Source: Streptomyces sp. DG2A-72 | GTDB taxonomy: Bacteria; Actinomycetota; Actinomycetes; Streptomycetales; Streptomycetaceae | Assembly (NCBI RefSeq): GCF_030499575.1 | Contig: NZ_JASTLC010000001.1 | Span: 4,240,001-4,304,000 of the forward strand | Direction of reading: 5' to 3' | DNA length: 64,000 nt | Part shown: positions 19,357-48,598 of the stretch, one piece after another | How the letters are laid out: each line of letters starts with the position of its first letter | How positions within the stretch are numbered: the first letter of the stretch is position 1 | Made by a program: the position numbers and the translations under genes | Notes under the pieces: generated by a model | What the model was told of the DNA's origin: nothing | The model's input: only the letters and a program-made list of their open reading frames with translations | Database searches by the model: none

Positions 19357-19626
19357 GTCGTCTCCCAGGCGTCGTTGCTGCTCGCCCAGGCGCACGGCAT
19401 TGACGGTTTCGTCAGGCCGCTCCCCGGTGGTACTCCACCCCAGCGCCAGTCACGGCCCATGCCGCACTGTAGTGGACGGTGGGCAGCCGATACCCCTGAT
19501 ACTTCGCCACCTCGCTGATGGATCACAGACCACGGACAGGGCAGGGTTGCCTCGTGGTGTGGCATCAAGTGCCAGGAGGCTGCCGCGAGTTGTCCTCTGG
19601 GGGTGTCGGCGGGAGCCGGGGGAATC

Positions 19627-32661: not shown

Positions 32662-32744
32662 CGGTGAATTCCCAATTCCCGAGGAATACGTCACTGTGAC
32701 TCCGCCGCTACGCGGCTTCCCACTTGGGCACAAGTGCCCTCACG

Positions 32745-32763
32745 GCGGTCAAGCCCTGACCGC
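32745..32763 (+). terminator. Hairpin after the MFS gene
   Basis: GCGGTCA-AGCCC-TGACCGC: a 7-bp perfect stem 83 bp past the MFS stop. A plausible terminator ahead of the CIRCE-bearing promoter. Confidence 0.55.
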
Positions 32764-32811
32764 TGCCTGGCGGCAGGTGACGCACGTTACTCCATTTGCT
32801 GGCGGCGCGGG

Positions 32812-32854
32812 TTAGTATGGACGATCGTTAGCACTCATCGAGTGAGAGTGCCAG
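32812..32854 (+). promoter_or_regulatory. CIRCE-like HrcA operator with upstream -10 box
   Basis: TTAGCACTC (32828-32836), nine bases, then GAGTGC (32846-32851). The left arm matches the CIRCE consensus in all nine bases and the right arm in the first six (consensus GAGTGCTAA). A -10-like TAGTAT lies at 32812-32817. CIRCE is the operator of the heat-shock repressor HrcA, normally found at groESL and dnaK/J genes. Here it lies 10 bp before the start of the FmdB-type gene and overlaps its leader. Confidence 0.75.
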
Positions 32855-32864
32855 GAGGAAGACA

Positions 32865-33188
32865 GTGCCCACCTACCAGTACCAGTGCACCGAGTGCGGC
32901 GAGGGCCTCGAGGCGGTGCAGAAGTTCACCGACGACGCCCTGACCGATTGCCCCAGTTGCCAGGGCCGCCTCAAGAAGGTGTTCTCCGCGGTCGGCATCG
33001 TCTTCAAGGGCTCCGGCTTCTACCGCAACGACAGCCGCGGCTCCTCGTCGAGCAGCTCTCCGGCGTCGAAGCCGTCGACGTCCACCTCGGACTCCTCGAC
33101 CACGTCGTCGTCCTCGGACACGAAGTCGTCGAGCACCGGCACCTCGTCGAGTTCCGGCACCTCGTCCAGCAGCAGCTCCGCCGCGTAG
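32865..33188 (+). CDS. FmdB family zinc-ribbon protein
   Basis: Protein of 107 residues. Residues 1-42 form the FmdB/CxxC_CxxC zinc ribbon (PTYQYQCTECGEGLE then CPSCQGRLKKVFS) with two Cys pairs to bind zinc. The remaining 55 residues are almost only Ser, Thr, Gly and Lys, a disordered tail. Family members are putative regulatory or chaperone-like proteins. The GTG start has GGAGGA six bases upstream. The CIRCE-like operator just ahead implies heat-shock (HrcA) control, unusual for this family. Confidence 0.9.
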   Translation: MPTYQYQCTECGEGLEAVQKFTDDALTDCPSCQGRLKKVFSAVGIVFKGSGFYRNDSRGSSSSSSPASKPSTSTSDSSTTSSSSDTKSSSTGTSSSSGTSSSSSSAA

Positions 33189-33295
33189 GACGCGCAAGCC
33201 TCGCTCACCGGACCCTGTCGTCGTACGACGGCAGGGTTCCCGGCATTTCCGGAGCCCCTCTCTGCGCCCGGCCGGGGCCAGCTAGTGTGCTGGTC

Positions 33296-48481: not shown

Positions 48482-48598
48482 ATGCCGGGCACACGCCACA
48501 GGCAGAGCCGGGCCCCGGCGCCCGGGGGGAAGGGCACCGGAACCCGGCTCGGGGAGAGTCCCGGCGCCGGGGGGAGGGCGTCGGGACTTGGTTCAAAG

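Follow-up and report, generated by a model that had tools for sequence, protein, structure and literature searches.

The window analysed here is the whole 64-kb stretch (64,000 nt) of the Streptomyces sp. DG2A-72 genome. It contains an fmdB/ruc-type gene (32865–33188, plus strand), assigned from its open reading frame and profile matches, which begins with a GTG codon and encodes a protein of 107 aa with a zinc ribbon and a Ser/Thr tail. Upstream of this lies a CIRCE operator (32828–32854), a predicted HrcA site on the basis of motif scans and conservation, which is separated from the start codon by 10 nt. The final two bases of the operator coincide with the ribosome-binding site AGGAGGA (32853–32859, plus strand), recognized from the sequence. 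Following the gene an inverted repeat is seen in the sequence at 33212–33237 that might be a terminator lacking a T run; a terminator scan after the gene found none. The downstream gene encodes methylthioadenosine phosphorylase. Among the 80 relative loci described below, taken with short flanks, the neighbours include a gene for an MFS transporter in 77, for methylthioadenosine phosphorylase in 75 and mscL in 54.

The protein matches PF09723 (4e-15) and TIGR02605 (7.9e-21), both over cut-off. The zinc ribbon is N-terminal, with its cysteines at positions 8, 11, 29 and 32 (CxxC-N17-CxxC). The first-pass annotation had described a zinc ribbon with a 55-residue Ser/Thr tail; ribbon and tail are both present, while the length requires correction, as the tail comprises 49 residues from residue 59, with 29 Ser and 8 Thr (37 Ser/Thr). 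The predicted structure, which has three short strands within residues 4–39, scores poorly (mean pLDDT 56.6), and after residue 40 the same low-confidence model has a pLDDT of about 46–51 and is devoid of secondary structure. No relative of solved structure was found at E up to 1. A second FmdB protein encoded in the genome (L008) is 27% identical to the 107-aa protein; no CIRCE operator was found upstream of its gene, where the best place has 9 mismatches.

The operator reads TTAGCACTC-ATCGAGTGA-GAGTGCCAG. It was compared with the CIRCE pattern TTAGCACTC-N9-GAGTGCTAA, in which the arms total 18 bases and the spacer nine, and agrees with it at 16 of the 18 arm bases. This is the sole match in the window with up to 3 mismatches, the second-best place having 6, and 100 shuffled versions of the window gave a mean of 0.01 matches (one shuffle with one match). 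The reading of this element as a near-perfect HrcA site before an FmdB gene is thus confirmed, with 2 mismatches and a frequency beyond chance as judged by the shuffles. At the same threshold the 10.6 Mb genome contains five CIRCE sites, against zero for a reversed-pattern control. The remaining four comprise two that precede a groES gene and two that precede a groEL gene, and hrcA itself is found in the genome (TIGR00331, 346.6 bits).

Conservation was analysed in the best 80 of 345 relative loci, of which 79 are titled Streptomyces and one Yinghuangia. The operator is found before the gene in all 80, with 2 mismatches in 79 and 3 in one (L088). Loss of the operator in close orthologues, named beforehand as an observation that would count against the proposal, was looked for, and the operator was kept throughout. 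Membership of the HrcA regulon, as proposed initially, is supported by this retention together with the presence of hrcA and the operators before groES and groEL. In 77 of the loci (L021, L043 and L088 being left out) all 18 arm bases are invariant, as is the ribosome-binding site beside the operator. The spacer varies at five of its nine positions (agreement in 41 to 69 of the 77) and is nearly fixed at the other four (74 to 76 of 77). The 80 loci come from closely related strains and so are not independent, and conservation within them is weak evidence by itself. In a wider draw the stretch of leader containing the operator was matched in 238 of 246 Streptomyces genomes by DNA search, a count of matches to the leader in which the operator itself was not scored.

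A draw from the whole class gave an FmdB-family match in 155 of 158 genomes. Outside the genus there were 141 genomes, from which 138 best matches were fetched (three were not listed) and 136 loci parsed. Accepting up to 4 mismatches within 200 nt, the operator is present in 104 of the 136, where the best FmdB match may be a paralogue if a genome has several; the reversed control gave 0/136, with a minimum of 5 mismatches. At least one operator-bearing locus was found in 29 of the 34 families sampled outside Streptomyces. Across families the arms are constant and the spacers differ, which is a better sign of selection than conservation among close kin. Conservation across the relatives gives strong support to the predicted control of the fmdB-type gene by HrcA. 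In other classes of the phylum, sampled as 42 loci (the 30 strongest matches plus twelve chosen for spread, 7 being unparsed), the operator is present in 8 of the 35 parsed loci, with a control of 0/35.

The operator is absent from all 13 loci of family f69, all six of f77, 3/4 of f5 and 4/13 of f70, and from six single loci (f53, f73, f74, f75, f79 and f80). Loss of hrcA was rejected as the cause, since hrcA scores over cut-off in all 48 genomes tested, including the 32 that lack the operator. Each of these 32 has at least two CIRCE-like sites elsewhere, a count to be read against a reversed control of 0 to 4 per genome that equals the number of sites in one genome (G451). As hrcA and CIRCE-like sites are kept in these lineages, the fmdB gene appears to lie outside HrcA control there while the regulon persists.

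Most of the Streptomyces loci also carry a predicted stress promoter. The sections of PMC2375139 and PMC9205884 on SigR of S. coelicolor give its promoter form as GGAAT-N18-19-GTT. Such a promoter precedes the gene in 77 of the 80 relatives, as GGAAT-N18-GTT in 76 and GGAAT-N19-GTT in one, and the last two bases of the GTT are common to the −10 box and the operator. With the two elements overlapping in this way, transcription would be SigR-driven and would be prevented by HrcA. The arrangement recalls the overlapping SigH and HrcA sites reported for ruc of Mycobacterium tuberculosis (see below). The DG2A-72 genome has a gene for a SigR-type sigma factor (TIGR02947, 361.7 bits, over cut-off). 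A further SigR-like sigma gene (C3:95920–96477) scores 242.9 bits, below the cut-off of 251.55.

Outside the genus, GGAA[TC]-N16-20-GTT is found in 20 of the 104 operator-bearing loci (shuffled mean 1.18) and in none of the 32 others, so that an overlapping pair is not a class-wide feature. The 20 include all eleven loci of family f3, which from its likeness to Ruc we infer to be Mycobacteriaceae. The −10 box starts 1–3 nt before the operator in eight of these loci and 18 nt before it in one. The remaining two f3 loci have their −35 box within the operator spacer. GGAAT is placed within the nine-base spacer upstream of fmdB in G511 (L225) and G521 (L264). In other classes the same pattern occurs in none of nine operator-bearing loci (counted with up to 5 mismatches) and in one of the remaining 26.

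In DG2A-72 this promoter is divided. The two halves corresponding to that of the relatives, GGAATACGTCACT (32683–32695) and ATGGACGATCGTT (32817–32829), are separated by an insert of 121 bp (32696–32816), the edges of which are deduced from the uninterrupted promoter of the relatives. The stranded −35 box is the GGAAT at 32683–32687 (plus strand; its role assigned from the relatives), and the −10 box is the GTT at 32827–32829 (plus strand), with two bases within the operator. While most relatives resemble the SigR regulon as described in the S. coelicolor sources, the boxes in DG2A-72 are 139 nt apart, and no GGAAT-N15-21-GTT pair is found at the gene.

The first ~80 bp of the insert are a dispersed repeat. 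The stretch 32696–32776 is matched in 14 of 242 Streptomyces genomes, some matches covering only 22–38 bases. Another copy in the same genome (C1:6137510–6137585, L090; 75%) lies between open reading frames that we take to be those of an aminotransferase and an adenosine deaminase, and a copy in G205 (C148, L121; 78%) follows what looks like a broken-off protease gene; there are weaker copies besides. Copies in DG2A-72, G205 and G012 start exactly at base 32696, the left edge deduced for the insert. The insert stands before fmdB in at least four relatives, G022 (95% identical over 170 bases), G225 (80%), G130/L043 (83% over 127 bases in G130) and L021; going by coordinates, G130 and L043 (S. 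hirsutus) are one sequence. Among the carriers, G225 has GGAAC as its −35 box and G130/L043 shows no such box at the corresponding position, which would fit a box that is no longer in use. SigR scores over cut-off in all four insert carriers searched.

The insert was also examined for functional elements. That it corresponds to a known RNA was rejected, because no hit in Rfam reaches gathering level (a single match, on the other strand, has E = 0.85) and when folded as single-stranded DNA it is no better than shuffles (z −0.77). A sigma-70 promoter inside the insert was likewise dropped, as the scan found no sigma-70-type pair there. The TAGTAT at its right edge (32813–32818, plus strand), seen in the sequence, is a weak candidate −10 box without a good −35.

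The closest characterized counterpart of the gene product is Ruc (Rv0991c) of M. tuberculosis, described in the relevant sections of Becker et al. 2020 (PMC7448276) as a redox-regulated chaperone that is repressed by HrcA and heat-induced by SigH, the sites of SigH and HrcA overlapping. According to the same sections Ruc is a disordered protein with one bound zinc that becomes chaperone-active once oxidized, and no strong phenotype was found for the null mutant; its homologues share the cysteine spacing and a hydrophilic C-terminal region of about 7 to 61 residues without predicted structure. In PMC8557902 rv0991c-rv0990c is likewise taken to be under HrcA control; the experiment reported there gave no significant change. 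The cysteine numbers of Ruc were taken from the names of mutagenic primers in PMC7448276, and the proteins were compared over three stretches read from primers, representing part of Ruc, with the cysteines set by the analyst. Over these 28 of 44 positions are identical, or 24 of 40 when the preset cysteines are omitted. The two proteins have four cysteines with the same numbers (8, 11, 29 and 32), a similar core and a hydrophilic tail of disordered type, and both genes have an HrcA site upstream, which in most Streptomyces relatives is overlapped by a stress-sigma site as in ruc. There are also differences. The stress-sigma promoter of DG2A-72 is divided by the insert, the downstream gene is that of methylthioadenosine phosphorylase as opposed to Rv0990c, and chaperone activity was measured for Ruc while the protein here is known from its sequence.

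By analogy, the fmdB-type gene probably encodes a redox-activated chaperone, the Streptomyces counterpart of Ruc. The first-pass annotation had set the gene apart as one that does not encode a chaperone and had suggested an uncharacterized heat-shock factor. Neither view is upheld by the portions of PMC7448276 that concern Ruc, whose counterpart status makes a redox-activated chaperone the nearer comparison, and in which a protein of this kind is already described as repressed by HrcA.

On this basis a regulatory scheme can be proposed. HrcA bound to the operator would block the start region and the area of the ribosome-binding site, holding the gene off. On heating HrcA would leave, and the gene would be expressed alongside groES-groEL and the second groEL. 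The reduced protein would be idle and zinc-bound, and the oxidized form would bind clients and pass them to DnaK, in the manner of Ruc. In most of the Streptomyces examined SigR would drive transcription with HrcA blocking it, and in the insert carriers a promoter other than the SigR-type one would serve the gene under HrcA. The repressor model followed here is that of the Ruc paper (PMC7448276); in the passage of PMC9739823 on S. coelicolor HrcA is worded as acting positively on groES-groEL1 and groEL2, contrary to that model. Taken as a whole, a ruc counterpart held by HrcA and released by heat, with a SigR input split by the insert, is an explanation that we hold with good confidence.

A chance palindrome in place of an operator is extremely improbable. 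With 0.01 matches expected per window and no other site in it better than 6 mismatches this reading was dropped, and retention of the motif in the close relatives and in most of the wider loci speaks against it as well. Granting that HrcA binds a real operator, the protein could be another kind of zinc-ribbon stress protein, such as a regulator, that shares the regulon. Databases often label such proteins 'FmdB family regulatory protein' or 'transcriptional regulator', and it is the zinc ribbon that can be compared with Ruc, not the tail, the role of chaperone being assigned by analogy. Yet the cysteine spacing of Ruc, the similar core and the HrcA operator are held in common, and the low predicted order of the Ser/Thr tail agrees with what the text of PMC7448276 reports for Ruc homologues, so that a non-chaperone seems rather unlikely, and the chaperone assignment is preferred.

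The consequence of the insert is less certain. Because it separates the SigR boxes and leaves the operator in place, SigR control would probably be lost and the operator kept; for DG2A-72 and at least four relatives taken together, we consider loss of SigR control of the gene to be evenly poised. It could instead be that stress-sigma control was not removed, with SigR or another ECF sigma factor using a different, non-consensus promoter within the insert. The left half and right edge of the insert are common to several strains and there is the second SigR-like gene on contig 3, albeit one below the family cut-off, but the lack of a consensus pair at the gene and the altered or missing −35 box in G225 and G130/L043 make such a retained input doubtful. 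HrcA control was probably kept despite the insert. In the uninterrupted Streptomyces loci two sensors might meet at one spot, SigR switching the gene on in response to thiol oxidation and HrcA having to release it on heating, with the repeat making a few strains HrcA-only; we place this slightly below an even chance. The two-sensor arrangement may in outline be common to family f3.

The link between HrcA and ruc is of a known kind, in print for M. tuberculosis in the sections cited. To this the present analysis adds how widely the operator occurs in the class, the overlap of SigR and HrcA sites in Streptomyces, and the insert. The Streptomyces HrcA/CIRCE regulon, given as groES-groEL1 and groEL2 in a passage of PMC9739823, has the same operator, found before groES and groEL in this genome also; the fmdB-type gene, which the passage does not name, is predicted to be an additional target. 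None of the passages, titles and abstract openings consulted among open-licence papers gives this gene as a target of HrcA or SigR in Streptomyces, and it may be listed elsewhere, for instance in supplementary tables. A gene called FmdB regulatory or zinc-ribbon in databases is thereby placed in the predicted chaperone regulon of Streptomyces, and the HrcA–ruc link is extended from M. tuberculosis to most of the families sampled. Should the split promoter behave as read here, comparing insert carriers with strains that lack the insert would separate the heat and oxidation inputs of a redox chaperone in harmless laboratory bacteria, and the repeat between the SigR boxes would constitute a natural rewiring experiment, converting a two-input gene into a heat gene under HrcA only.

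Two minor observations may be recorded. Ten genomes of genus g153 in family f69 (G549, G470, G517, G448, G541, G489, G434, G480, G525 and G460) are small (1.3–1.5 Mb), and their fmdB genes are without the operator; their HrcA, in a frame of 243–255 aa, aligns to the family in two segments (about 1–130 and 227–336), as though lacking the middle domain. Elsewhere in the window, Rfam matches on the minus strand correspond to the Scr3202 small RNA (48501–48591) and a ZMP/ZTP riboswitch (19377–19463).
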